The notes under the pieces are model-generated. The model had not been told where the DNA came from. It worked only from the letters and a program-made list of their open reading frames with translations, and searched no databases. A stretch of DNA of 64,000 nt from Terriglobus roseus. GTDB taxonomy: Bacteria > Acidobacteriota > Terriglobia > Terriglobales > Acidobacteriaceae. Each line of letters opens with the position of its first letter. Position 1 is the stretch's first letter. A program made the translations under genes and the position numbers. Shown piece after piece: positions 3,412 to 19,563 of the stretch. Where the stretch lies: assembly GCF_900102185.1 (NCBI RefSeq), contig NZ_LT629690.1, positions 4,030,001-4,094,000 on the forward strand. Direction: 5' to 3'.

Positions 3412-6400
3412 TTAGTACAGCAGCGCCGTGTAAGGAGCCGTGCTCAGCGCACCACCCTCCAGGATCACGAAGCGTCCGGGCGACAGAGCGTAGACCACAC
3501 GCGTGCCATCGATCAGGAAGCGTCCTGCCGTTGCATCGGTGACGGTGTACGTACTGCTTCCTGTGACACCCAACTGCAGGATGTTCAGGTTGCCCACGCC
3601 GACGTTGGTATCCGTGGTGTAAGTGACGTTCCCAGCCCCATCTGCGGTGAAGGTTCCATCACCGTCGATGGTGGCCAGGCTGCTTGCCGGTACCGTTCCG
3701 TAGATATAGGTGCCGTTCAGAGTTGCCGTGGTGAACGGTCCTGCTGCCTGCGCTTCCAAGTGACCGAGGCCTGCGTAACCGGTCTCCAGGAAGTAGCCCT
3801 CGTTGTTGCCGGTGAGATAAACCACACGCGCCGGCGGCGGATCGGTTCCGAGTCCCAGAAGGGCCAGAATCGGGCTGAGGATGTTGTTGGGTGCGGGGTA
3901 GTTGTAGACAGCGCGTCCGTTGCTGGCCACAGCACAGCTGCTGTTACCCAGTGACTGATACGTGCCAAGGATTGCGTTCAGGACGTTGACGCCGCCGCCG
4001 AGACCGGTCAACGAGTTGACCAGGCCGGTGAGGCCGCCTACATCGACGTTGGTGGTGGTGCAGGTGCCGTTGCTGTTACCCGTGCCACGGATGATGGTGG
4101 CCGAGGACAGATTGAGCACGGCGTCTACCGTCTTACCCACAAGGCCAGGGTTGACCGGAGCGTTCTCATAGCCGACGAACGGACCGTTGAGCGACGCGTT
4201 GCTGAACGTTGTCTGAGACTGCGACAGAATGGTGCCTGCCTGCAGCACATAGGACGAGTGCTTGTCCGTGGACATGATGAATGCGTGGGTCTGATCCACC
4301 AGGTACACAGCGTAGTGAGTTGGGTATGCCACTCCGGAGAGCTTGGAGCTGGTCAGGGTCATACCGACGCGGCCATTGGTGTCCGCAGCGGAGCTGGCGC
4401 CTGAGAGCGTGGAGCTGGCGTAGTTAGTGCTGGCGACATTTGCATCGCCCACACCGGTGATGGTTCCACCGTTGGCTGTGAACTGTCCGACCGATGCAAC
4501 CGGTCCGGCGATGAGGCCGATGGTGCAGGTGGGCAGGCAGGGAGTGTCACCGGAGACACCGTAGGCATAGCCTCCGTTGAGACCGTTGCCGTACACGTTG
4601 GCGTTCTGCGCCAACAGCGTTCCGGATCCCTTGGTTGCAAGGAGGACGGTACCATCCGACTCAATCATGCTGCCGCTGGAGGAAGCCGTGGCCGGAGCCG
4701 TGGGCAACTTCAGCGCGAGTGAGTACAGGGTGGTGTTGCCCGCCGTGCCATCAGCATTGATGGTGGTTACGGCAAGAGTGCCGCGGCCATCTGTACCGAT
4801 GGTGTACGTGCCCAGCAGTTCATTGCTGGCGATGATGTTGCCGGTGGGGTTAGAGGACTGGTGATTGCTGTCGAGTTCGCCAGCGGTCAGCAGGCCATTG
4901 CCATCTGCGGTGATGCTGCCGATGGTTGCAGTCTGGTATGCGAGTACACCTGCCACCACATCGTCATAGCCCTGGAAGAGGAACGCGTACGGTCCCTTCA
5001 GGAGAGCGTCAGACGGCGTGGACGGATAGACAACCTGCATGGTCAGCGGGAGGCTGGCCTGCTGCGGCGTTGTCTGGCTGTCAGTTGCGGTAATGGTGAA
5101 GCTGCTTGCGCCCACCGCAGTTGGGGTTCCGCTGACAACACCGGCGCTGGAGAGCGAGAGACCCGCTGGCAGCGATCCGGAGGTGACAGTGTAGGTGTAC
5201 GGCGGGAGTCCGCCCGTGGCTTGCAGCGTCTGCGTGTATGCCACGCCGAGCGTTGCATTCGGCAGACCGCCGGTGAGCGTCAGAGGACTGATCGGGTTGA
5301 CTGTCATGACAATGTTCGCGGTGCCGGTTTTGGCCGGGCTGGCCGAGTCGGTTGCCGTGACATTGAAGGTGGACGTGCCAGCCGTGGTTGGCGTGCCTGT
5401 GATGGCGCAGTTTGCGGCCATCGTCAGACCTGCAGGCAGGCTGCCGCTGTTGAGCGCGCAGGTGTACGGAGCGGTTCCGCCCGTGACACCAATGGCTCCG
5501 CTATACGGTGTGCTGACCGTTGCGTTCGCGGGTCCGGTCAGGGTGAGCGATGACGTTGCGCCGAGGATGGTGATTGGCACAGCGGCAACGGTTGAGTTGA
5601 CTGGGCTGGCCGAATCGTGGACAGCAACATTGACCGAGAACGTGCCTGCCGAGGTCGGCGTGCCCGAGAGGGTGCAGTCGCTGTGCAGCGTGAGGCCAGG
5701 AGGTATTGTGCCCGAAGACACCGAGCAGGTGTACGGCGGTGTTCCACCCAGTACGAGGATGACGCCGACGTAGGGTACGTTCACCACACCCACTGGAGGT
5801 GCCGTGAGTGTGAGGGTAATCAACGCGCCCTGCACCGTGATGGTGACCGGAGACGTCTTGGTGTTTGCAGGATTGGCGGAATCCGTGGCCGTGATGTTGA
5901 CCGTGGATGCGCCAGGTGTGGTCGGTGTACCGGTGATCACGCAGTTGGCGTTCAGCGTGAGACCGGCAGGCAGAGTTCCCGACGCCACCGTGCAGGTGTA
6001 GGGAGCGATGCCGCCAACAACAGTGACCAGGCCAACGTAAGGCACGTTCACCACTGCGACCGGCGGCGCGGTGATGGTTAGCGTGAGCAGGCTTCCGATC
6101 ACGGTGATGTTGACGGTGGTGGTCTTGGTATTTGCCGGGTTGGCGGAATCAGTAACCGTGATGCCTACCGTGGAAGTACCCGGCGTTTGCGGCGTTCCGG
6201 TGATGACGCAGTCCGAGCCCATGGTGAGACCATTGGGCAACGTACCCGAGACCAGCGTGCACTGATACGGAGCAGTGCCACCTGCGACAAGGATGGTTCC
6301 GACATACGGCACACCAACCACTGCCACTGGAGGAGCGGTGATGGTGAGCGTGATGAGGGGAGACTGCACCGTGACAGTGACAGTTGCTGTGGTGATGTTT

Positions 6401-8697: not shown

Positions 8698-8723
8698 GTT
8701 ACTTGCTCTTCTCTGTGTTGTCC

Positions 8724-8745
8724 ATAGTTATCGACGGATAACTAT
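8724..8745 (+). terminator. Hairpin between convergent RHH and tadE genes
   Basis: A 9-bp perfect stem (8724-8732 with 8737-8745) and a 4-base loop, 27 bp after the RHH stop and 50 bp before the convergent tadE end. No U-tract; it may serve either direction. Confidence 0.45.
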
Positions 8746-8795
8746 AGGATCACGTTATCGCTTACTAAACTGGTATTTCTTACGAGCTGTCTTGC

Positions 8796-9299
8796 TTATT
8801 GAGAAATTATCGTGGATCGACTTGCGGAGAGGGTAATGCCTTTATTCAAGGGCGCAGGAAGCATAAAGGTAAACGGGTAGCTGACGGTTACGGTCACCAT
8901 GCATCCCGGACTATTACTTCCCTGCGCTGTATCGCATGCGCCAGATGCTCCCGATGTACCCGGCCATGATGCTGTGACAGATATGTTGGATGCACTAATT
9001 CCTGGCGCCACATTTGTTCGAATGTAGTTCTGGATGTCGCTCGCTCCCGCCTCACAATAGTTTGAATTTGACGTTGCGCACATTGTGCCGCTGTATGTAG
9101 AACCCCGCACTGTGGCATACCGAGCACCTGCAGATGCAGCCCATTCGACGTAGTGCTCGGTATACACCGCCAGAGAACATTCCATAATGCCGAGAATGAC
9201 GAGCAGCACAAGGCTGAGACACAGTGACGTCTCCAGCAATGTGCTGCCTGTTTCCTCGCATAAGACTTCACCTGCACGAAGATGTTTAACGTGACGCAC
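8796..9299 (-). CDS. tadE: TadE-like minor pseudopilin (second copy)
   Basis: 167 residues. The N-terminus has a prepilin-type cleavage site (T-G before S-T-L-L-E, with Glu at +5), followed by one hydrophobic segment of about 20 residues and a variable extracellular domain with several Cys. This is the TadE family: envelope-anchored minor pseudopilins needed for Flp pilus assembly and presumably processed by the CpaA peptidase encoded at the other end of the locus. It overlaps the upstream tadE by 14 bp, which implies co-translation. It is the last gene of the Tad transcript. Confidence 0.85.
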   Translation of the reverse strand: MRHVKHLRAGEVLCEETGSTLLETSLCLSLVLLVILGIMECSLAVYTEHYVEWAASAGARYATVRGSTYSGTMCATSNSNYCEAGASDIQNYIRTNVAPGISASNISVTASWPGTSGASGACDTAQGSNSPGCMVTVTVSYPFTFMLPAPLNKGITLSASRSTIISQ

Positions 9300-9768
9300 G
9301 GAGTCTCACCTTCGCTGTAAGAGGAATGGTAGTAGAAATACCAGGCCATGGAAGCAAGGGTGTATAGGTGGAACTGGTATCCAACTCCACGTAGTACACG
9401 CTGTTCATGGAGCTGGAGCAGGTTGGTTCAGACGAACAGGAAGCAATAGCACTCGTGCCGTCTGAACATTCACAACCGTACGTCGCGACAGGCTTCACAG
9501 TGATAAGTGTGGACGCATCGGTTTGCGCCGCAAGCTTCATGCCCGCAACGTCAGTTGGATAATGAATGCCGTATGCAGTGCCCGTACGCGCTGCCGCGTT
9601 CACGATCATAGCGGCACGAAAACCGCGGCCAATGTCTACAGCACCGGCAAGCAGGAGAAGCAAAACGGGAAGTACAAGGGCCGTTTCAATCAGGCTGTTG
9701 CCGTCCTGGCGCTGTGCGAGCGATGCCGATTGTGCGATGAGACGAAACAACGGAATTTGTTGACTCAT
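9286..9768 (-). CDS. tadE: TadE-like minor pseudopilin (first copy)
   Basis: 160 residues. A cytoplasmic leader is followed by D-G-N-S-L-I-E-T-A-L (cleavage after Gly, Glu at +5), a hydrophobic helix, and an extracellular part with a cluster of four Cys (Y-G-C-E-C ... S-C-S ... T-C-S) that could form disulfides. It belongs to the TadE family. The start codon overlaps the tadG stop (ATGA), a sign of translational coupling. It shares only the N-terminal helix architecture with the following tadE copy, so the two are likely to have different roles in the pilus. Confidence 0.88.
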   Translation of the reverse strand: MSQQIPLFRLIAQSASLAQRQDGNSLIETALVLPVLLLLLAGAVDIGRGFRAAMIVNAAARTGTAYGIHYPTDVAGMKLAAQTDASTLITVKPVATYGCECSDGTSAIASCSSEPTCSSSMNSVYYVELDTSSTYTPLLPWPGISTTIPLTAKVRLRASR

Positions 9769-11192
9769 TGCACCAGCTCCGAATGATCTCCGCCCAACGG
9801 TGAGCCGGACTGGAGTGAGGAGTAATCGTTGGAAATAGTGCTGAGCACGCCTGCGTTGAATTGCACCTTATCCGCCACGATGCCGTTGTAACCACCGCCC
9901 GCGTTAATGACATTTACCGCGTAACTAACAGTTGCTCCTGGTTCGTAAATGACACCATTCAACTGTTGACCAGACAGAAGTGTGGGGGCCAGGAAGGTAC
10001 CTGTGTTAGTGATGTTTTTGGCCTGCCAAAACAGAATGCCGCCATATTGTCCGCTGGTTGGTGCACTGAAAGCGAAGTTCGACAATCCAAGGGGCAGGGT
10101 GGGAAGCGTGAGAGATATGCCGTTGTTGCTTTGGTTATAAAACATCACTCCCTTGCCTTGAATTGTGCTGAGAGCCGCGACGCTAATGACAAATCCAGAG
10201 CTAACAGGAGCCGGCGTGTTGCCGAAGATATCTTTCGGTGCTTGATAGTTGCTGATGATGTATGTTCCAGGATTAAACGTGATCGTGGAGCCGACAGACG
10301 CCGTGATAGTAATACCGCCACAGTAGACGCCGGGGTTGAAGGTTATATTCGCAAGGATGGGCAGAATGGTCACGGGACCAGGAGCCCCTGTATAAGGAGA
10401 GCCCGTAGTTTTGCCGCATGGCGCATTGGGTTGAGCTGGTGCGGGGAGGTACGCGAGAGGATCTGCAGGGACAGGGAGAGGAGCTTGCGTGACTCGTGTA
10501 TTTCCAAGACACAGAAGGCTGGCACCTCCTCCAGTTGGAGAGACCTGTACGTACGGCGCGGTGACACCGAGACCCACGAGGCAATTCACGGAACTGGGGC
10601 TGCTAGATTCGACGACAACGCCACAGTTGGCCCTGAAGCCAAGGCCGACCGCCACATTGAGCGTGCCAGAATCGGTAGGATTGAGCGCATAGAGACAGGG
10701 CCCGCCGATGCCACGTGCTGCCTGCGCGCGCGCTTTAAGGGAAAATCCCGTGAAACCGAAGATCCGCGAGAAGTACAACGGCGCCGTCTCAGAAACCTGA
10801 GTCTCCACATAATTGAGACGGTTCAGCGTCGTCGAACCAGAGGTCATCGTATTTGTAACGATGCATGTGGGGTTGTTCACCATAACAGTGAGCCCAGTTC
10901 CAGCGGACGCGCATTGCGTGATGAGAGTGGCTCCGCTGTATCCGTTCTCTACCATCGCCTTCTGCACCGCGGTTTGCATTGTCCCGCAGTTGGACGTACT
11001 GCCACAGACTCGCACCTCGAGTGCTGCCGCCAATGCAGTGGCATCGGCAGCGTTCTGCAGGCGCCGTTGCTCATGGCGGACGGCGCCAATGTCCACGGCC
11101 AGACCGAGAAATCCAATCAGTACGACCATGCACAAAGCGGCGACGACCAGTACCTGGCCGCTGTCATCACGAAGTTGGGATAGGCGCCTCAT
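9765..11192 (-). CDS. tadG: TadG-like Flp pilus assembly protein with beta-helix-like C-terminus
   Basis: 475 residues. It begins with the TadG/TadE-type N-terminus (D-D-S-G-Q-V-L-V-V-A-A-L, a transmembrane helix, then D-I-G-A-V-R-H-E-Q-R-R-L-Q-N-A-A-D-A-A/T pattern) typical of the pilus-assembly TadG N-terminal domain. The position +5 Glu of true pseudopilins is replaced by Val. Unlike classical TadG I see no von Willebrand A metal site. Residues about 250-450 instead contain repeated F-N-P-G-V-Y / F-N-P-G-T-Y-I-I and G-V-M-F-Y elements that suggest a beta-helix-like exported domain. It overlaps the DUF192 gene by 26 bp upstream and tadE by 4 bp downstream. Confidence 0.85.
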   Translation of the reverse strand: MRRLSQLRDDSGQVLVVAALCMVVLIGFLGLAVDIGAVRHEQRRLQNAADATALAAALEVRVCGSTSNCGTMQTAVQKAMVENGYSGATLITQCASAGTGLTVMVNNPTCIVTNTMTSGSTTLNRLNYVETQVSETAPLYFSRIFGFTGFSLKARAQAARGIGGPCLYALNPTDSGTLNVAVGLGFRANCGVVVESSSPSSVNCLVGLGVTAPYVQVSPTGGGASLLCLGNTRVTQAPLPVPADPLAYLPAPAQPNAPCGKTTGSPYTGAPGPVTILPILANITFNPGVYCGGITITASVGSTITFNPGTYIISNYQAPKDIFGNTPAPVSSGFVISVAALSTIQGKGVMFYNQSNNGISLTLPTLPLGLSNFAFSAPTSGQYGGILFWQAKNITNTGTFLAPTLLSGQQLNGVIYEPGATVSYAVNVINAGGGYNGIVADKVQFNAGVLSTISNDYSSLQSGSPLGGDHSELVQ

Positions 11193-11565
11193 GTAACAGG
11201 CCGGACTCCTGAATGCGAAGTTGGTCCCCTAGCTGCAGGCCGGATTCGACGATCCTGCCTGCAGCGAGTTCGAGGACGGTGCGTACCGACGGCACGATGG
11301 CAGTGAGGCGATACGGTTTGAGCGAAGGCCAGAGACGCACCACGCGAAGCTGTGCGTCCAGGCCAACTACGTCGATCGGAAAGCGCATGCCGATGGTATG
11401 CACGCCCGAAGACGGTTTGATCCAGATGCCTTCTTCCCGCTGAAGATGGCTGCGGCCCAGCAAGCCGACTGCGCGACTAACGGATGTATCAGCGACCATA
11501 ACGCTTGAAGCTACGACAACATCTTCCGCAAGCGTATGAACGGATACCATGCGTTTGTTCCGCAT
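11167..11565 (-). CDS. DUF192 family protein embedded in the Tad locus
   Basis: 132 residues. It shows the DUF192 pattern: G-L-L-G-R ... E-G-I-W-I, then H-T-I-G-M-R-F-P-I-D-V-V-G-L-D, and a late V-L-E-L-A-A-G. Most family members are small secreted or lipid-anchored proteins of unknown function; this copy has no obvious signal peptide. It starts 2 bp after the stop of the 30-codon membrane microprotein and ends inside the first codons of tadG, so it is translated with the pilus genes. DUF192 genes do occur near TadE/G genes in other bacteria, but no mechanism is established. Confidence 0.8.
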   Translation of the reverse strand: MRNKRMVSVHTLAEDVVVASSVMVADTSVSRAVGLLGRSHLQREEGIWIKPSSGVHTIGMRFPIDVVGLDAQLRVVRLWPSLKPYRLTAIVPSVRTVLELAAGRIVESGLQLGDQLRIQESGLLHEAPIPTS

Positions 11566-11567
11566 GG

Positions 11568-11660
11568 TTATGCCTGTTTACGGCGGCGATACACAATCAC
11601 TGCAAGAATCAATACCGCGAGAACACCGGCTGCTACGCGGATCATTGTGGTCATGTCCAT
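11568..11660 (-). CDS. 30-residue single-pass membrane microprotein in the Tad operon
   Basis: Between tadC and the DUF192 gene there is an ATG (11660) with an AAGGAG ribosome site 9 nt upstream and a stop at 11568, two bases before the next start. The product is 30 residues: M-D-M-T-T-M-I-R-V, a hydrophobic stretch of about 15 residues (A-A-G-V-L-A-V-L-I-L-A-V-I-V-Y), then R-R-R-K-Q-A. It reads as one transmembrane helix with a positively charged cytoplasmic tail. The strong ribosome site, tight spacing and sensible topology argue for a real gene. I do not recognise a family, and nothing in the sequence says what it does. It could equally be a small stabilising subunit of the TadB/TadC platform. 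Confidence 0.7.
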   Translation of the reverse strand: MDMTTMIRVAAGVLAVLILAVIVYRRRKQA

Positions 11661-11730
11661 TGGAACTATCTCCTTTAGGTTTATGTTTCGATTTCGTTGA
11701 TCAAACTAACTGGGTGGATCTCAACTTGAA

Positions 11731-12624
11731 CTACTGGAGGTCTTTAAAGACTCCGGACAAACTAATAATTGCCGGTGCCAACAAGACCAGGAACAGGCAG
11801 GGGAAGATAAAGAAGACCAGAGGAAATACAATTTTGACGCGGGTTTTAGCAGCGGCTTCCTCAGCCCGTTGCCTTCGGTTCATGCGCAAATCGTCTGCAA
11901 ATCGACTAAGTGCGCGCGCAATGGGTGTTCCAAATCGCTCGGACTGGATAAGCATTCCAACAAACGATCGAACTTCTTCTAAGTCGGACCGTTCTGCAAA
12001 CCGTTTCCAGGCGTCCATTCTTACCCCGCCCACACGCTGCTCTAACAAGACACGTTGAAACTCCCCATGTAGCTCCCGGTGACTTAGCGCCAACTCGTCA
12101 GAGACGCGCACCATTGCTTGATCCAAACCGAGCCCAGCTTCCACGCAGATGTTCAGCAGATCAAGTGCATCTGGCAGGGATCGTACGAGACTCGCCTTAT
12201 ACAAACGAATGCGGCGTCGCAACCAGATATCTGGACCGAGATAGCCAATCGCAGCAAGAGTCACACATGCGAGCAGCATATTGCTGCGAACAAAGGTACC
12301 GAGAAAAAGCCCGGCCAAAGGCGCGATGCCTTGCGCCAGAGCATAGGTGTCCCTTTGCAGCGAAGTTCTCAGTCCCGCAGCCTCAAGCTTTTCTCTTGCC
12401 TGTTCGCTTTGGCGTGTGCCGGCACGCGGCCGTAGCACTGCAGTCCAACGAGCCAGAACTTCTCTCAACCGCGGTGACTTTGGCTTTACTTCAACATCCT
12501 TTACCTGTACCAAGTGCCGAAGACGATCCGAGTTGGCAGACTCGTTCCAGACCATGGGCATGGCAAGGAGCAGGACGACGGAGAAGAGCATGAAGCCGGC
12601 GGACCCTATAAGAAGAAAACTCAT
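11731..12624 (-). CDS. tadC: TadC inner-membrane platform protein
   Basis: 297 residues. An N-terminal membrane helix and a paired helix near 95-130 precede a T2SSF-type cytoplasmic domain (about 140-265: L-P-D-A-L-D-L-L-N-I-C-V-E-A-G-L-G-L-D-Q-A) and a C-terminal membrane helix. This matches TadC, which with TadB forms the inner-membrane platform on which the CpaF ATPase acts. The gene starts 4 bp after the tadB stop, so the two are coupled. The C-terminal K-T-R-V-K-I-V-F-P-L-V-F-F-I-F-P helix is characteristic of the family. Confidence 0.93.
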   Translation of the reverse strand: MSFLLIGSAGFMLFSVVLLLAMPMVWNESANSDRLRHLVQVKDVEVKPKSPRLREVLARWTAVLRPRAGTRQSEQAREKLEAAGLRTSLQRDTYALAQGIAPLAGLFLGTFVRSNMLLACVTLAAIGYLGPDIWLRRRIRLYKASLVRSLPDALDLLNICVEAGLGLDQAMVRVSDELALSHRELHGEFQRVLLEQRVGGVRMDAWKRFAERSDLEEVRSFVGMLIQSERFGTPIARALSRFADDLRMNRRQRAEEAAAKTRVKIVFPLVFFIFPCLFLVLLAPAIISLSGVFKDLQ

Positions 12625-12628
12625 ACAA

Positions 12629-13591
12629 TCACACTTCTATCCCGCGGATGATCTGACGAATGGTGAACACACCGAGGCATAAGAGAACGACACCTGTGTA
12701 GAGAAGCTTGCGGCCCATGGGATCGGTGAAGAGGATGCGCGAATATCCCGGGCTCATGGCGTTGATAACGAGCATCAGTCCTACCGGTAACAGACAGAGA
12801 ATCCATCCGGTGAGTCGGCCTTGCGCGGTATGTGTACGCACCTCTCCTTGAATGCGAACGCGATCGCGAATGACTGCAACGATGCGATCCATCACGTCAG
12901 GAAGATTGCCACCTGTATCTTTCTGGATGAGGAGCCCGGTGACAAAGATACGCAAGTCACGGGAGGGAACACGCTCCAGCATGGAGGAAAATGCATCGCG
13001 GATGGGCAAGCCATAGTTCTGGTCGCGGTGCACTTCCGCAAAGTCCAGACGCACGGCAAGAGGCGCTTCTTCTGCAAGCACACCAATGGCAACCGGAATC
13101 GCATGGCCTGCGCGCAGAGAACGCGCAAACATTTCCAGCGCTTGCGGAAGTGCAGATTCAAAGTCTTTGATACGACGCTGCCGCTTAATACGAAGCCACA
13201 ATACCGGAGCAAAAGAAAAAGCGAATGCGGCGGCTGTGAGAATGGGGTTCGCCGTTACAAGGTATGTCAACAGTGGCAATGCAACAGCAATGCAGACCAC
13301 CGTGAGAATGACTCCGCCCGGACTCCAATCGCTTCTGGACTGCAACAGCAGTAAACGGATGTGGCGCAGGAGACGAGTGCCTTCAAGATACTTCTCTACC
13401 CAGGAGTACGAATTTGGAACCTTCTTCTCCAGGCTGGCCTGCAGCGTCTTTGGCTGCGACGGCTTCGTAAAGACGACAAGTGTCTGCAGACGCAGCTCCG
13501 CTTCCGTGGCTACCTTCGAAGGTGTGGTGCCATACATTACGGCACCGAAGATGATCGATGTGAGCAGGGCGAAGCAAAGAGCGATCCACAT
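12629..13591 (-). CDS. tadB: TadB inner-membrane platform protein
   Basis: 320 residues. Membrane helices lie at the N-terminus, at about 100-130 (two) and at the C-terminus. The central T2SSF-type domain has L-P-Q-A-L-E-M-F-A-R-S-L-R-A-G-H-A and V-T-G-L-L-I-Q-K-D-T-G-G-N-L. It is the TadB paralogue of TadC and partner of the CpaF motor. It starts 4 bp after the cpaF stop. Order and spacing (cpaF-tadB-tadC) are the conventional Tad arrangement. Confidence 0.93.
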   Translation of the reverse strand: MWIALCFALLTSIIFGAVMYGTTPSKVATEAELRLQTLVVFTKPSQPKTLQASLEKKVPNSYSWVEKYLEGTRLLRHIRLLLLQSRSDWSPGGVILTVVCIAVALPLLTYLVTANPILTAAAFAFSFAPVLWLRIKRQRRIKDFESALPQALEMFARSLRAGHAIPVAIGVLAEEAPLAVRLDFAEVHRDQNYGLPIRDAFSSMLERVPSRDLRIFVTGLLIQKDTGGNLPDVMDRIVAVIRDRVRIQGEVRTHTAQGRLTGWILCLLPVGLMLVINAMSPGYSRILFTDPMGRKLLYTGVVLLCLGVFTIRQIIRGIEV

Positions 13592-13595
13592 GCCG

Positions 13596-14894
13596 TTAGA
13601 CCTCCACGCTCACGTTCAGGAGTTCCGCAAGGGCCTGAGGCGGTATGTCATGAAGTCTGCCTGCAAAGCGAGGAAGAATGCCCGGTGAGTAAAAGCGACC
13701 AGCGACCTTGCCGGCAGCATCAGTCCCCTTACGTTCAAAAAGATAAAGGTCATTCAGTGCGACGATCTCAGCCTGTGTTCCCACAACTTCTGCAATGTGC
13801 GTGATGCGGCGTGAACCATCGCTCATACGAGCTACCTGCACAATGAGGTGAACTGCCGATGCAATCTGATTACGGATCGCTTTTTCCGGAAGACCAACGT
13901 TGGCCATCATGGCCATGGTTTCAAGACGGGCAACGGCGTCGCGCGGAGAGTTTGCATGGATGGTCGTAATAGAACCATCGTGGCCTGTATTCATCGCCTG
14001 CAACATATCCAGTGTTTCTTCGCCACGGACTTCGCCGACCACAATGCGGTCGGGACGCATACGCAGTGCGTTGATGATGAGTTCGCGTTGACGAATAGCA
14101 CCGTGCCCCTCCAGATTTGGCGGACGCGTTTCAAGACGTACGACATGCTCCTGGCGAAGCAAGAGTTCGGCGGAGTCTTCCACCGTAACGATGCGTTCAC
14201 GACCAGAGATAAATCCTGACAGCACATTCAACAGCGTCGTCTTACCGGCACCGGTGCCTCCGGAAACCACGATGTTCAAACGCGCTTCCACAGCCATGCG
14301 AAGAACCTCAAGCATGGAAGGTGCAAGCATCTTCGAACGGATGAGATCTTCCGCAGTGAGAGGTGTATTGCCGAAGCGACGGATTGAGAGGATTGGCCCG
14401 TCAATCGCCAGCGGCGGAATGATGGCGTTCACACGCGAACCATCCGGCAAGCGGGCGTCGACCATGGGCGACATCTCATCCACACGCCTCCCCACCGCCG
14501 ACACGATCTTCTCAATGATGTGCATCAGGTGGCGGTTGTCTTTGAAGACGATATTGGTCTTCTCAAGAAGGCCGCGACGCTCTACATACACTGAGTTCCA
14601 GGTGTTAACGAGAATGTCGCTGACTGTTGGATCGTGGAGCAGGGGTTCGATAGGGCCGAGGCCGAAGACCTCATTCAATACCTCTTGCGTCAGGCGATCG
14701 CGCTCCGCTGCACTCAGCGGAATTCCCTGCTCGGTAACGATGCGATGGATGATGCCAAAGAGCTGTTGCTGGCTGGAACGTGTCTCATTGAACTCGGCCA
14801 GACGTTCAAGATCGAGCCTCTTCAGGAGCTCACGATGCACCGCCGACTTCACCTCCTGCTGGGTGGCCTCCGAGATGCTATGACGAATGGGCAT
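13596..14894 (-). CDS. cpaF: CpaF/TadA pilus-assembly ATPase
   Basis: 432 residues from the ATG at 14894, preferred because GGGGAG lies 6 nt upstream; an in-frame ATG at 14939 would add 15 residues. It is a hexameric type II/IV secretion ATPase. Walker A G-G-T-G-A-G-K-T is at about 212-219. The Asp box lies around [10 protein letters not shown], Walker B in [12 protein letters not shown], and the His box in [11 protein letters not shown]. It powers Flp pilin polymerisation at the inner face of the cytoplasmic membrane and should dock on TadB/TadC. It is the most conserved gene of the locus. Confidence 0.95.
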
Positions 14895-14977
14895 TGTGAT
14901 CTCCCCCTCATCGATCGTGATCATGCTGTTAACAGCCATTGGCTTCTACGTTCCTTCGTTCAATAGGTGAGGTCCGA

Positions 14978-16216
14978 CTACCAGGCAGGTATGAGCTGCC
15001 GCCAGCGGGAAGCCAGCTTCTCTTCTTTACGTTTGGGTGCGGGTTTCGTGCTGACGTCCGCTAGCTTGCTGCTCCACGCGTGCAGACCCGCCGCAAGCTG
15101 GCTTGGGCCAGGGAACTTGAGCGTCTTACCTGCGTTGGAAGCGAAAACCATTTCGCCAGGGCTGTCCTGAAGCTTGAGCGCAATAGGAAGCTTCAGAACT
15201 TTCTCAATCTGATCTGCGGCCACGGCATGCGGCGCGTTATAGCGATTGAGAATGACCTTTAGCTTTGACGATGCACCTTCTGTCACAACAAGACCGTCAG
15301 CAATGCGAGAGAGATCGCGCACGGCAGCAACTTCCGGTGTGGTAACCATCAGAATCTCGGACGAAGTAGCCACCAGGCTGGGCCAGAGATCCGTCTGCCT
15401 GCGATCGCAGTCCAGAATGATGTAGTCGTATTCCCCGCGCAAAAACTCGAGTGCACGCGTGAACTCTTGTGCAGGAACGGGTTCCTGATTGTCGGGCACA
15501 TCCGGCGAGGACAGGATATCGAGACCGCTGAAATGATGCGCGACAAAGCCGTGGAGTAACTCGCTGTCCATGCGCTTCAGATTGCGAACAAACTCTCCAA
15601 GCGTGTGGTGTTCGCCGTCAATCCCCAGATACACGCAAGCGTTGCCCAGCATCTGTTGCTGATCAATAAGCAGCGTTCTCTTCTGGTGGTACTGAGCAAG
15701 GTACGCAGCGAGGTGCACTGCAATGCTGGTCGACCCAACTCCTCCCTTGGCTCCGAGAATGGAGAGGACGGTGCCGTTGGTGGCGTTGTTCCCTACCTCA
15801 GTGAAGCAGTAATCCTGAAAGCGATCGAGAAGTACATCCAGTTCCTGTTGCGAAGAGTGCTTGGTGAAGTACTCGCTGCAGCCCGCGCGCATGGCAGCCA
15901 GGATGGCTGTCGACGTGGGACGCTTGCCCACAGCAACGATAAGGACTTTCCCAGGAAAAGCCTTCGAAAGATACTGTGCGGTTTCGGCCGCTTCATCGGG
16001 ATTGCGATCGTAATCAACAAACGCAAGACAGCCGTTCGAAGACGAGATGTACTGCCCAATGGATGGGTGCCGGAGCGATGTGAGATACCGCTCAAAATGA
16101 AATGCGCTGCTGGACCAATTGCGCATATTCACCACATCAAGAAGTTCCCGGGTGACGCGTTCTTCCGTTCCGATTGTGAGCACAACGACATCAAGAGTTC
16201 CGTTCATCTGATACAT
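14978..16216 (-). CDS. cpaE: CpaE/TadZ-type ParA/MinD-like localisation ATPase
   Basis: 412 residues from ATG 16216 (AGGAAGG about 9 nt upstream); a GTG at 16237 and an ATG at 16207 are alternatives. The N-terminal about 130 residues form an atypical receiver-like domain. A ParA/MinD ATPase domain follows, with deviant Walker A G-A-K-G-G-V-G-S-T-S near 155-164 and L-L-I-D-Q-Q-Q in place of the usual Asp-rich switch. The second half (Y-D-Y-I-I-L-D-C-D, then L-V-V-T-E) keeps the P-loop fold. CpaE/TadZ proteins place the pilus machine in the cell. It sits between the secretin and motor ATPase genes, as in other Tad loci. Confidence 0.92.
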   Translation of the reverse strand: MYQMNGTLDVVVLTIGTEERVTRELLDVVNMRNWSSSAFHFERYLTSLRHPSIGQYISSSNGCLAFVDYDRNPDEAAETAQYLSKAFPGKVLIVAVGKRPTSTAILAAMRAGCSEYFTKHSSQQELDVLLDRFQDYCFTEVGNNATNGTVLSILGAKGGVGSTSIAVHLAAYLAQYHQKRTLLIDQQQMLGNACVYLGIDGEHHTLGEFVRNLKRMDSELLHGFVAHHFSGLDILSSPDVPDNQEPVPAQEFTRALEFLRGEYDYIILDCDRRQTDLWPSLVATSSEILMVTTPEVAAVRDLSRIADGLVVTEGASSKLKVILNRYNAPHAVAADQIEKVLKLPIALKLQDSPGEMVFASNAGKTLKFPGPSQLAAGLHAWSSKLADVSTKPAPKRKEEKLASRWRQLIPAW

Positions 16217-16258
16217 TCCCTGCGTCCTTCCTGACACCTCTGTCCGGGCGTGTCTTTT

Positions 16259-17761
16259 CTAGTGTTTTGTTGATTTCTGCATCTTTTGATCAAAGACTGG
16301 CCGATCAAGCATCTTCACTGCCAATGCTGGCTCTTTCACCTGCTCCTTCGATGGATCAACAATCTCGGGCGTGACCAGAACCAACAATTCTGAAGTGGAG
16401 TGATTAATGTTTTTGCTCTTAAACAGATTCCCAATGATCGGAATGCTGGCAGCACCAGGTGTACGGCCTAGCTGGTCCGTCGTACGTTGATCCAAAAGTC
16501 CGGAGATTGCAAACGTCTGTCCGTCACGAAGTACCACCTCCGTATCCGCTCGGCGGCTCGAGATGGCAGGAATGGTGTAACCGCTGATCTGTACGGCATT
16601 GGTGTAATCCAGCGCACTTACTTCTGGTGCGACCTTCAGGTCAATGGAACCGTCGGTATTTATCTGCGGAAGAAATTCAAGCTTTACGCCATAAGGCCGA
16701 AATTGAACCGTGATGGAAGTAAGACCGCTAACGCCTCCCTGAACTACAGGAAACGGAAATTCACCACCCGCGAGGAAGTTGGCTTTTTCGCCACTTAGAG
16801 TGGTGATATTCGGCTCTGCGAGAATCTGCAGAACATTCCGCTGCTCCAGATCCTGGATCATGGCACCGAGATTTAGATCGGCGCTATAGAGCAGAAAGTT
16901 CAATGGATTGGTAACGGAAACAGTCTTGCCTCCTACGGTGTAGGTATTGTTGGTGCTCCCACTGCTGCCGCTGCTACTTCCCGTTGTTGTCGTAAGAGAG
17001 GAGGGAAACTGCGAGGTGCTACTGGTCGCCAATGTATTGCCGCCGGCACTGAAGAGGTTGAAGCCCATCTGCTCCAGTTTGGTTCGATCGACCTCCACGA
17101 TACGAACATGCAGACGGACCTGACGTGAGGTTGCAGGATTCACAACGATCGCGTTAGATACATCTTTGGAATACTGGCCAGCGAGCTTTTCTGCGGTTTG
17201 ATAAGACGTGACATTACCAACCGTGCCAGAAAGCAGAATGCGTGAGCCTTCCGCCTGCACCTTAATGTTCTCGTTGGGCAGCGCCGACTTCAACACGCTT
17301 TCCAGCAGCGATGTCTCCGTGTCAGCCGAGTAGAAATAGGTGTGCGTTTCACCACTTTCATCCCAGATCATGAGCGAACTTACACCCGGCTCCTTCGCGG
17401 TAACCAACACTTCATTGGGAGTGGCGGTATACGCAGACAACACATTGGGGTTGGTGATGTACACGCGCGACAGACGTTTTTGAGAGGTGACATATGCCGA
17501 ACGGCCAATGAGAAGATGCGTTGGCGCATCGGACAGCACTGCACTCTCCATTCCCGATCCTGCCGATTGATTGGAAGAACTCGCACCGTCAGGGCTATCC
17601 GCTACAGGTTGCGCAGTAGCCGCACTGCTCTTCTCCGCATCGGTAGGCGCCGAAGCAGTGCGTGGCTGCGGACGCTCCGCGTACACCGACGTTGACGCGA
17701 GCGTTGCCGCAAGGGCAACGCAGCAGATGGATCGATCAAGGAAAGCATTCAGGCGATACAT
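16259..17761 (-). CDS. cpaC: CpaC/RcpA-type outer-membrane secretin
   Basis: 500 residues. A signal peptide (to S-V-Y-A) is followed by a long Pro/Ala/Ser-rich segment, a pilus/secretin N-domain (about 80-220) and the secretin core. Recognisable core parts are V-L-Q-I-L-A-E-P-N-I-T-T-L-S-G, G-G-E-F-P-F-P-V, and V-P/A-x-I-G-N-L-F near the end. It forms the outer-membrane channel for the Flp pilus. The start overlaps the cpaB stop by one base (TAATG). A Gly/Ser/Thr-rich insertion (about 250-275, S-G-S-S-G-S-T-N-N-T) probably marks a surface loop. Confidence 0.93.
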   Translation of the reverse strand: MYRLNAFLDRSICCVALAATLASTSVYAERPQPRTASAPTDAEKSSAATAQPVADSPDGASSSNQSAGSGMESAVLSDAPTHLLIGRSAYVTSQKRLSRVYITNPNVLSAYTATPNEVLVTAKEPGVSSLMIWDESGETHTYFYSADTETSLLESVLKSALPNENIKVQAEGSRILLSGTVGNVTSYQTAEKLAGQYSKDVSNAIVVNPATSRQVRLHVRIVEVDRTKLEQMGFNLFSAGGNTLATSSTSQFPSSLTTTTGSSSGSSGSTNNTYTVGGKTVSVTNPLNFLLYSADLNLGAMIQDLEQRNVLQILAEPNITTLSGEKANFLAGGEFPFPVVQGGVSGLTSITVQFRPYGVKLEFLPQINTDGSIDLKVAPEVSALDYTNAVQISGYTIPAISSRRADTEVVLRDGQTFAISGLLDQRTTDQLGRTPGAASIPIIGNLFKSKNINHSTSELLVLVTPEIVDPSKEQVKEPALAVKMLDRPVFDQKMQKSTKH

Positions 17762-18588
17762 TAAAAGGTCTCCACGGAATCCTTATCGCCGCGGCGAACC
17801 TGGATGCTGTAAGTGGCGGGAGTCGACTTGGTGTGAACTGGCTGAGCCTGAGTGTGCGCCGGTGCATGAGGGACAGCAGCGGGTGCAACCGTAGAGGATG
17901 CCTGAACACCGAGTGCGGAAAGACTCATCGGAGCATTAGCTGCCACGACATGATCTCCGCCGTTTCTGAGAACGAAGTGAACTGTTCCCTGCGTACTGGC
18001 GAGCACAATCTTTTCTGCTTCTTCCGGCGATACCAACAACGTGACAACGTCTACCTTGCTGGCGTGACCATCGGGATCGGGCTGCATCTTTTCGCCAGCG
18101 GTAAGCACCTGCGCGTCTTGAAGCACGATGGATGTCACAGGATCTGTAGAAGAAGCCGCGCGCACTGTCACCAGCACATCTACGTGCGTGCCGGGCAGAA
18201 GATATCCAGCAACACCAACCACCTCATTCGACTTGAGTGAGATAGCGCGCATGCCAGCAGGAATGTGAGCAGAAAGGCCAGCGCTGGTAGCGAGCTGACG
18301 TGCCGTCAGTGGCTCGCCTGCCTGCAAGGGATAGAGAGCCGACTTGCCGATAACTTCATCGGTACGGACAAAAGCACCAGGCAGAGGCACATCGGACGGC
18401 CACGAAACCTGCTTCAAGTCGTCTGCAGCAATGATCTGTCCTGGGTCCAGATTCTTAGCGAGAGCAACATACTTCGTGGATCCGGAGCTACTGCCCCGAT
18501 GCGACAACCTGGTACCCAGCCAAAGCGTGAACAGACCAGAGACGACGAGTGCAACTGTAAGTGCAATGAGGATGCGGCGTGGCTGCAT
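17761..18588 (-). CDS. cpaB: CpaB/RcpC-type Flp pilus assembly protein (SAF domain)
   Basis: 275 residues from the ATG at 18588, four bases after the cpaA stop; a TTG at 18612 is an alternative that would overlap cpaA. One N-terminal membrane helix is followed by a SAF domain (V-A-L-A-K-N-L-D-P-G-Q-I-I, then P-L-Q-A-G-E-P-L-T) and an RcpC-type domain (G-V-A-G-Y-L-L-P-G-T-H-V-D-V-L-V-T). The last 50 residues are low-complexity Ala/Pro/His. CpaB is periplasmic and helps the secretin assemble. Confidence 0.92.
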   Translation of the reverse strand: MQPRRILIALTVALVVSGLFTLWLGTRLSHRGSSSGSTKYVALAKNLDPGQIIAADDLKQVSWPSDVPLPGAFVRTDEVIGKSALYPLQAGEPLTARQLATSAGLSAHIPAGMRAISLKSNEVVGVAGYLLPGTHVDVLVTVRAASSTDPVTSIVLQDAQVLTAGEKMQPDPDGHASKVDVVTLLVSPEEAEKIVLASTQGTVHFVLRNGGDHVVAANAPMSLSALGVQASSTVAPAAVPHAPAHTQAQPVHTKSTPATYSIQVRRGDKDSVETF

Positions 18589-18592
18589 GATG

Positions 18593-19129
18593 TTATTGCC
18601 CCACCTTCTCAAGGGAAATCGTCAGCAGCGTACCGGCGGTAATGGCCAGCGCATACGGCAGACGAAGATTGCGTTTGTTGCGAACGTTCAATTCCGGATG
18701 TGGCTCCAAACCGTTCTCACAGTGATGCGCGACGATGCGGCCAACATTCCTCACGGAATGCCACACCCGCCGATGCCACACGATGACAACGATTGCCATC
18801 ACTCCTCCGCACAATGCGGTAAGAACAAGAAGGGCTCCAGTATTCGAGAGGCCAATCCCTGCTGCAATCGCAGCAATCAGCTTTACATCTCCTCCGCCCA
18901 TTCCTCCTGCCAGAAACAACACGAGGAAGAGAGAGCCTGCAAGCACGGACGCGACGAACGATAGCGCTAGTGCATGCAGGCCTCCGATGGTCACCTGCAG
19001 TATGAGGGCTCCAACGAGCGTTGGAAGAGTAAACCAATTTGGAATGCGGCGCGATCGGACATCCATAACAGCAGCACAAAGTGCCACCGCTGCGGTGTAC
19101 GACTGCAACACGTTTGCATGCGATATCAT
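18593..19129 (-). CDS. cpaA: CpaA/TadV A24-type prepilin peptidase
   Basis: 178 residues with about six hydrophobic helices. The two catalytic Asp of A24 peptidases are in place: M-D-V-R-S-R-R-I-P-N (first) and G-G-G-D-V-K-L (second, the GxGD motif). It lacks the N-terminal methylase domain of PilD, as expected for TadV/CpaA. Its substrates should be the Flp pilin at 19202-19381 and the two TadE proteins, all with G|xxxxE sites. An AGGAGG lies 11 nt upstream of the start. Confidence 0.93.
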   Translation of the reverse strand: MISHANVLQSYTAAVALCAAVMDVRSRRIPNWFTLPTLVGALILQVTIGGLHALALSFVASVLAGSLFLVLFLAGGMGGGDVKLIAAIAAGIGLSNTGALLVLTALCGGVMAIVVIVWHRRVWHSVRNVGRIVAHHCENGLEPHPELNVRNKRNLRLPYALAITAGTLLTISLEKVGQ

Positions 19130-19201: not shown

Positions 19202-19381
19202 CTAGGTAGTCGGGGTAAGTGCCGTCACAACTCTGCCCAGAGCGTTCTGGATAGCGGTAGCGAGTCCAGAGAGGGCGGTGACGCAAACAGCGCCGACGAG
19301 TCCTGCGACCAGTGCGTATTCGATGAGGTCCTGTCCTGATTCGTCCTGTGCGAGATCATTCCAAATGCGATGAAGTTTCAT
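19202..19381 (-). CDS. flp: Flp-type major pilin
   Basis: 59 residues from the ATG at 19381 (AAGGAG 7 nt upstream). The leader M-K-L-H-R-I-W-N-D-L-A-Q-D-E-S-G is cut before Q-D-L-I-E-Y-A-L-V-A-G-L, giving Glu at +5 and Tyr at +6, the Flp signature. A hydrophobic helix and a short Thr/Ala-rich tail follow. The mature protein is about 43 residues, normal for Flp. It is the first gene of the Tad operon, 72 bp before cpaA. Confidence 0.95.
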   Translation of the reverse strand: MKLHRIWNDLAQDESGQDLIEYALVAGLVGAVCVTALSGLATAIQNALGRVVTALTPTT

Positions 19382-19563
19382 TCCGTGCTCCTTGAGTGTT
19401 CTAGGTAATGCGTTGGGGGTTCGTTGCTGTTCCCTCCGTATCCTGTTCCGCCCAGTAACTGCGCAAAAACTGAAATTCAGAGGAACTGCTCCACTATCTT
19501 GCAACGAGAAATGACTATTGGTCACCACGGCGAGTTACCTAAATCCAAATAAAACTTGATTTT

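Follow-up and report, generated by a model that had tools for sequence, protein, structure and literature searches.

Many bacteria use Tad pili, the products of the Tad/Flp (type IVc) systems, for adhesion, biofilm formation, and predation. The inner-membrane platform of these pili has thus far been described by models (PMC12307814, PMC13170226). In the passages of these two reports that were consulted, no extra single-helix subunit is named for the platform formed by TadB and TadC (CpaG and CpaH). The microprotein presented here is encoded in the same cluster as the platform proteins, after tadC. A literature search, for which most subscription journals and preprints were out of range, gave no account of such a protein in the titles and abstracts among the matches listed. 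By analogy, the microprotein may be compared with CydX, KdpF, and AcrZ, which likewise contain ~30-50 residues, consist of one helix, and lie beside a larger membrane complex. The partners of these proteins are an oxidase, a transporter, and a pump, respectively, rather than pilus machines.

The window, which is the whole stretch of DNA that was analyzed, encompasses 64,000 nucleotides from Terriglobus roseus. The source genome consists of one contig of 4.85 Mb, and it contains this stretch in a single copy. The Tad genes of the window, from the Flp-like gene through those for TadE, all lie on one strand (minus). The first of these encodes a probable Flp pilin (19202..19528), the match of which to Flp_Fap (2.7e-6, 27.5 bits) falls under the curated cut-off of 32.2. 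There follow the genes for a tadV-type prepilin peptidase (18593..19129; Pfam Peptidase_A24, 7.6e-18), rcpC/cpaB (17761..18612; RcpC, 1.1e-27), and an rcpA/cpaC-type secretin (16259..17761; Secretin, 8.8e-44). The Tad names of the next three genes were assigned from their order, and these are a tadZ/cpaE-like ParA-family ATPase (14978..16237; AAA_31 and CbiA), a tadA/cpaF-type ATPase (13596..14939; T2SSE, 9.8e-63), and tadB (12629..13591; T2SSF, 8.4e-16). The second T2SSF gene, tadC (11731..12624; 6.9e-19), encodes a protein that shares 68% and 82% identity with its counterparts from two congeners, and it lies directly upstream of the microprotein gene. Beyond the latter are a DUF192 gene (11167..11565; 1.6e-16), a tadG-like gene (9765..11192; Pfam Tad, 5.9e-13), and two genes for tadE-like pseudopilins (9286..9768 and 8796..9299; TadE, 2.4e-11 and 1.2e-9, respectively).

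The microprotein gene itself extends over positions 11568..11660 on the minus strand. As the original prediction had it, the frame contains 31 codons, namely those for the 30 residues of MDMTTMIRVAAGVLAVLILAVIVYRRRKQA and a stop, and the Shine-Dalgarno sequence AAGGAG is located 9 nt before the ATG (11670..11675 on the minus strand, read from 11675 to 11670). The proposed R-R-R-K tail is likewise present at the C terminus of the translated protein. The one transmembrane helix that had been anticipated agrees with a model calculated with AlphaFold2 from the single sequence, in which residues 3-29 are predicted to form one helix (mean pLDDT 90.5, pTM 0.40). The gene had further been described as packed between its two neighbors. 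This description is correct for the DUF192 side, where the ATG (11565) lies 2 bp past the microprotein stop, but not for the tadC side, where 70 nt separate the tadC stop (11731) from the microprotein start. When the 64-kb window was scanned in its entirety, on both strands, for short open reading frames having a hydrophobic segment, a basic tail, and a Shine-Dalgarno-like site, in a slightly stricter form of the criteria applied below to the position after tadC, only the frame for MDMTTMIRVAAGVLAVLILAVIVYRRRKQA was returned. A frame of this length is near the lower limit of gene callers, and some relatives of the microprotein may already be annotated as hypothetical proteins. A promoter and terminator scan of 8700-13600 gave no more candidates than were found in shuffled sequences. 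The 3' end of tadC contains an imperfect hairpin, GGAGTCTTTAAAGACCTCC, at 11736-11754 (minus strand); it lacks a T run, and no terminator was called there.

The window protein has no match in Pfam at an E-value of 0.001. This includes the Flp_Fap and TadE profiles, neither of which is among the best 25 of the 35 families matched at an E-value of 1 by the 47 aligned relatives described below. Among the matches listed, those of the 47 members are weak and involve helix segments of unrelated families, the best E-value being 0.00027 (Syndecan, one member). With NCBIfam, the window protein matched LPXTG_anchor (TIGR01167) at 16.7 bits, which passes the cut-off of 15.9 by 0.8 bit (E-value 0.0089), and 29 of the 47 members matched the same model at an E-value of 1 or better (best 0.001). 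An LPXTG-anchored protein was considered and rejected: there is neither an LPXTG motif nor a passenger domain, and only positions 14-33 of the 34 in the profile, corresponding to the helix and the tail, are matched. The models of C-terminal sorting signals (LPXTG_anchor, GG_III-CTERM, PEP_CTERM, and others) share with the microprotein the pattern of a helix followed by a basic tail. The Flp pilins and TadE pseudopilins are, like the microprotein, small single-helix proteins of the same cluster. The microprotein differs from them, however, in that it has no Pfam match and no pilin cleavage site by eye, and its predicted orientation is opposite to theirs because the basic tail is on the C-terminal side.

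A conserved small membrane protein gene between tadC and the DUF192 gene, under purifying selection, was looked for in relatives and was found. An alignment of 47 sequences of ~30-40 residues (alignment A1), one of which is the window protein (profile E-value 1.9e-14), gives the consensus MDxxTxIRxVAGVLxVxVLxxLIxRRK. The strongest constraints are on R25, R26, and R8, which are retained in 46, 45, and 43 of the 47 sequences, respectively; A11 is found in 41 and G12 in 37. Over the first 26 codons, comparison of the gene with that of the nearest relative in the set, congener G154 (TadC 82% identical), reveals 12 synonymous differences and 2 non-synonymous ones; for congener G031 (TadC 68% identical) the numbers are 13 and 8. 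In 621 pairs that were formed among 157 distinct homologous genes and have 72-95% nucleotide identity, pN is lower than pS in every case (621/621; pooled values 0.124 and 0.532), although 621 is not a number of independent events because the pairs share ancestry. The same alignments read in frame +1 give a pN of 0.226 and a pS of 0.212, and those read in frame +2 give 0.273 and 0.103. The differences within the 621 pairs number 3005, 1287, and 7116 at codon positions 1, 2, and 3, respectively. The 30-residue open reading frame is a real gene that is conserved in many Acidobacteriota.

The 47-sequence profile matches 150 of the 398 genomes of the taxonomic family to which T. roseus belongs, or 109 of 256 when only those of high quality are considered; the 398 genomes include a 150-genome sample, in which 88 have a TadC relative. 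In the window's genus, TadC is present in 11 of 19 genomes and the microprotein in 8, leaving 3 of the 11 TadC-bearing genomes without it. A phylum-wide sample of 396 genomes produced profile matches in 33, including 11 outside the family. Nine of these 11 are directly after tadC, one (L170) adjoins DUF192 and a fragment of TadA on a small contig, and one (L171) is a false match within a long open reading frame. The profile family is patchy outside the taxonomic family, because 53 of the sampled genomes there have TadC and only 11 have a profile match. Four of the outside forms (L163, L164, L166, and L169) carry an N-terminal extension of ~18 residues, such as MNLALWLLQAAPE, which is partly hydrophobic and could be signal-like or a second membrane segment.

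Loci were also read individually. After the removal of seven (six repeats and one filler), there were 108 TadC loci from the family and the genus. In 55 of these a microprotein starts from 15 to ~300 nt past the tadC stop, in most cases with a Shine-Dalgarno-like site ahead of it, and in 53 there is none in the stretch read. Three of the 53 end at tadC, and in two others a copy lies farther downstream, at ~1.5 kb (L015) and ~5 kb (L114); the loci that end at or just after tadC are L006, L044, and L107, with L006 showing a microprotein start. Among 80 named tadC loci, 72 have a microprotein no more than 900 nt downstream, present as a single copy in 51, a double copy in 18, and a triple copy in 3. 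The carriers include Terriglobus albidus, Granulicella aggregans, Silvibacterium bohemicum, and Occallatibacter savannae. The named loci and the sampled family genomes overlap in part, and therefore the two sets are not independent.

The association with tadC is tight in one direction. In the 150-genome sample, all 49 carriers have tadC, 39 genomes have TadC without the microprotein, and 62 have neither, given thresholds of 1e-20 for TadC and 0.001 for the profile (Fisher p 1.7e-15, a statistic that ignores relatedness). The microprotein is co-inherited with tadC in that none of the 62 genomes without tadC carries it, yet many tadC loci are without the microprotein. On a TadC tree of 156 rows, which is a quick tree with long branches from which rows of less than 200 residues were left out, the microprotein label requires 10 changes versus a mean of 50.0 for shuffled labels, and 0 of 500 shuffles was as low; the shuffles ignore relatedness, and three of the rows labeled as having none (L044, L107, and L343) end early. 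Five genomes (G014, G030, G048, G073, and G147) each contain a pair of TadC loci that belong to different clades, and in each pair only one locus has a microprotein of the profile family. At residue 132 of TadC there is an aspartate in 50 of 56 family carriers and an arginine in 37 of 45 family non-carriers. A charge contact between this residue and the RRR tail was rejected, as a tree-aware test, run both for the profile family and for any transmembrane microprotein, revealed no signal in tree-independent pairs (median p of 1).

Several copies are found in other settings. Genome G227 has two that are away from tadC, the first (L172) flanked by a TadZ-like gene and by one that contains DUF192 and the second (L174) between an ftsK-like and a beta-propeller-like gene, the names having been assigned from the reading of the open reading frames. 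Beside the orphan copy in L172, at 4997-5890 on the minus strand, is an open reading frame for 297 residues, in which a DUF192 region is joined to a C-terminal part that appears PilZ-like by eye. In L177 the microprotein follows an Flp-like gene. Genome G092 has three extra microprotein frames (L366-L368) that are partly degraded in appearance, and no T2SSF gene occurs in the stretch. Microprotein-like frames were found in none of 11 proteobacterial plasmid Tad loci, nor in the one Gemmatimonadota locus examined (L258).

The position after tadC was further analyzed with fixed criteria, namely a length of 18-75 residues, a hydrophobic segment followed by at least three Lys or Arg residues, and a Shine-Dalgarno-like site. 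A fitting frame occurs after tadC in 57 of 104 family loci and in 18 of 58 loci outside of the family, the other 40 of which have none. The corresponding numbers at the ends of other open reading frames of at least 200 residues are 2 of 462 (family) and 1 of 501 (outside), and on the opposite strand they are 0 of 104 and 0 of 57. Seven family loci contain frames for 24-40 residues that are unmatched by the profile, such as MTPAVVAVLVILLVLGLVAYNRQKDQA, and that by eye overlap the tadC stop or start no more than 9 nt past it; three of the seven pass the fixed criteria. Nine of the 18 outside loci have frames that the profile does not match, exemplified by MPSSTIVLMGVAGVFLMLYLARRRSRLKRDDA and, among the longer ones, by MLILAALFLQESERPDLTLNYFIIAFLLVIAAVLSVIVVRRRMKEKDDDWE. 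In two loci of the window's genus (L035 and L036), the region between tadC and DUF192 contains an Flp-pilin-like gene and then a 28-residue hydrophobic frame without a basic tail, MAHIFGLDAIWLLVVPCVVTIVGLHCHQ in L036 and near-identical in L035, which stands in place of the microprotein. Tentatively, and with slightly less than an even chance of being correct, it is proposed that many Acidobacteriota Tad machines keep a position for a single helix beside TadC, overlooked in descriptions of these systems, that is filled either by one family distributed patchily in the phylum or, in other lineages, by helices of the same design that differ in sequence. Selection would then act on the presence of a basic-tailed membrane helix at the platform and not on one exact sequence.

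The best reading of the microprotein is that of an accessory helix of the TadB-TadC platform, because tadC is its most constant neighbor; whether this reading is right or wrong appears to be about evenly balanced. On the basis of hydropathy and the positive-inside rule, the latter of which underlies the N-out/C-in assignment, the helix is predicted to span the inner membrane so that the Arg/Lys tail lies in the cytoplasm and the short, acidic N terminus on the outside. The small residues A11 and G12 may pack it against the membrane helices of TadC and TadB, and the packed helix would stabilize or tune the assembly platform at the site of docking of the ATPase TadA. Association with TadB/TadC and any influence on assembly are both putative, and a gene neighborhood does not prove a physical partnership. 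The original prediction, that of a small subunit or regulator acting in the TadB/TadC platform, is retained, and no observation distinguishes between these two roles. The microprotein does not, however, belong to the general core of Tad machines, because 53 of the 108 TadC loci are without one in the stretch read. Given the many TadC loci and genomes lacking the microprotein, it follows that the platform can work without it.

It is unlikely, though deserving of consideration, that the microprotein functions as a membrane regulator or tether, the basic tail of which would bind acidic surfaces of TadA/TadZ or anionic lipid and thereby set the engagement of the motor. The tail is its most conserved feature (R25 in 46/47 and R26 in 45/47), basic tails recur in other microproteins of the same position, and the two or three copies in 21 of the 72 carrying named loci suggest that dosage may matter. 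The tail is not specific for a regulator, however, because it also fixes the N-out/C-in orientation.

The Tad system is split in some family genomes (L382, L384-L387, L391, and L404-L423), where the genes for RcpC, RcpA, TadZ, TadA, TadB, TadC, DUF192, and usually Flp are together and those for TadV and TadE/TadG are elsewhere. In L382, L386, and L391 a protein of 664-841 residues of unknown function is encoded after DUF192. Within the same family, one large TadC clade (45 tree rows) includes 38 rows with no microprotein and 7 with one of another kind, and DUF192 mostly comes soon after tadC. Twenty-one larger stretches, hand-picked and including the window, were read. Thirteen have TadE/TadG-type genes, and all 13 have a transmembrane microprotein (nine of the profile family and four others). 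Six have neither TadE/TadG nor a microprotein, and tadV is absent from these as well; in L392 and L393 the microprotein is present and TadE/TadG are absent from the stretch read. The weak TadE/TadG matches in L382, L385, L386, L387, and L391 correspond to their Flp-like open reading frames. In 19 genomes that are non-carriers or have the other type, and that cover three of the six loci with neither (G045, G028, and G143), TadE/TadG are elsewhere, and tadV accompanies them in 18 of 20 such stretches. No microprotein candidate was found in these separate TadV/TadE/TadG clusters (20 stretches, 241 kb, both strands). As a positive control, the same scan recovered the microprotein in 11 of 11 profile-family stretches (10 of the 20 larger stretches plus the window), and it also gave other frames in L390, L393 (two), L395, and L397; it could miss microproteins of the other kind, because it found only one of four (L389, and not L383, L388, or L390). 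TadE is present in 95 and Tad/TadG in 91 of the 150 genomes, non-carriers included, and for this reason it is cluster linkage, rather than the presence of TadE/TadG in the genome, that tracks the microprotein. The microprotein goes with united Tad loci, an association that is a correlation only because the six loci come from one TadC clade.

This association bears on the idea that the microprotein has as its partner either the prepilin peptidase or the pilins and pseudopilins (TadE/TadG/Flp); it might, for instance, hold pseudopilins at the platform. The 13 of 13 loci with TadE/TadG-type genes, the absence of tadV from the six loci with neither, and its occurrence in 18 of the 20 separate stretches are in keeping with such a role. 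Yet TadE/TadG are missing from the stretch read in two loci that do have the microprotein (L392 and L393), the 21 loci were chosen by hand with the six belonging to one clade, and the microprotein displays no pilin-type cleavage site by eye. Such a partnership is regarded as quite improbable.

There is little likelihood that the gene is a translational coupler or leader that delivers ribosomes to DUF192, as might be imagined from the 2-bp spacing in the window and from a DUF192 gene that by eye has no strong Shine-Dalgarno sequence of its own. The amino acid sequence of the microprotein is under strong selection, and several loci outside the family have no DUF192 match beside it. Moreover, in 117 partly overlapping loci the DUF192 alignment starts 1-394 nt (median 144) past the last copy, a distance on account of which DUF192 coupling was rejected as the main role. 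In most family loci read, whether or not they have a microprotein, DUF192 itself is located no more than a few hundred nucleotides past tadC, and no role for it with a pilus is mentioned in the titles and beginnings of abstracts among the matches listed.

A small hydrophobic type I toxin that sits in the operon by chance would agree with the size, the hydrophobicity, the occasional two or three copies, and the one copy (L174) away from Tad genes, but it is very improbable in light of the manner in which the microprotein follows the TadC tree, the lack of any carrier without tadC among the 150 genomes, and the recurrent position after tadC. For a chance open reading frame no supporting point was found, and the coding selection, the recurrence in relatives, the position controls, and the whole-window scan effectively rule it out.

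An open reading frame near the length limit of gene callers can, as observed here, be conserved across families of one phylum. If the microprotein is indeed an accessory helix of the TadB-TadC platform, this conserved extra helix in one set of Tad machines would provide a small and genetically simple handle on how the Tad platform is held together or switched, and it would be relevant to attempts at reconstructing a Tad system of Acidobacteriota on the basis of gene annotations.
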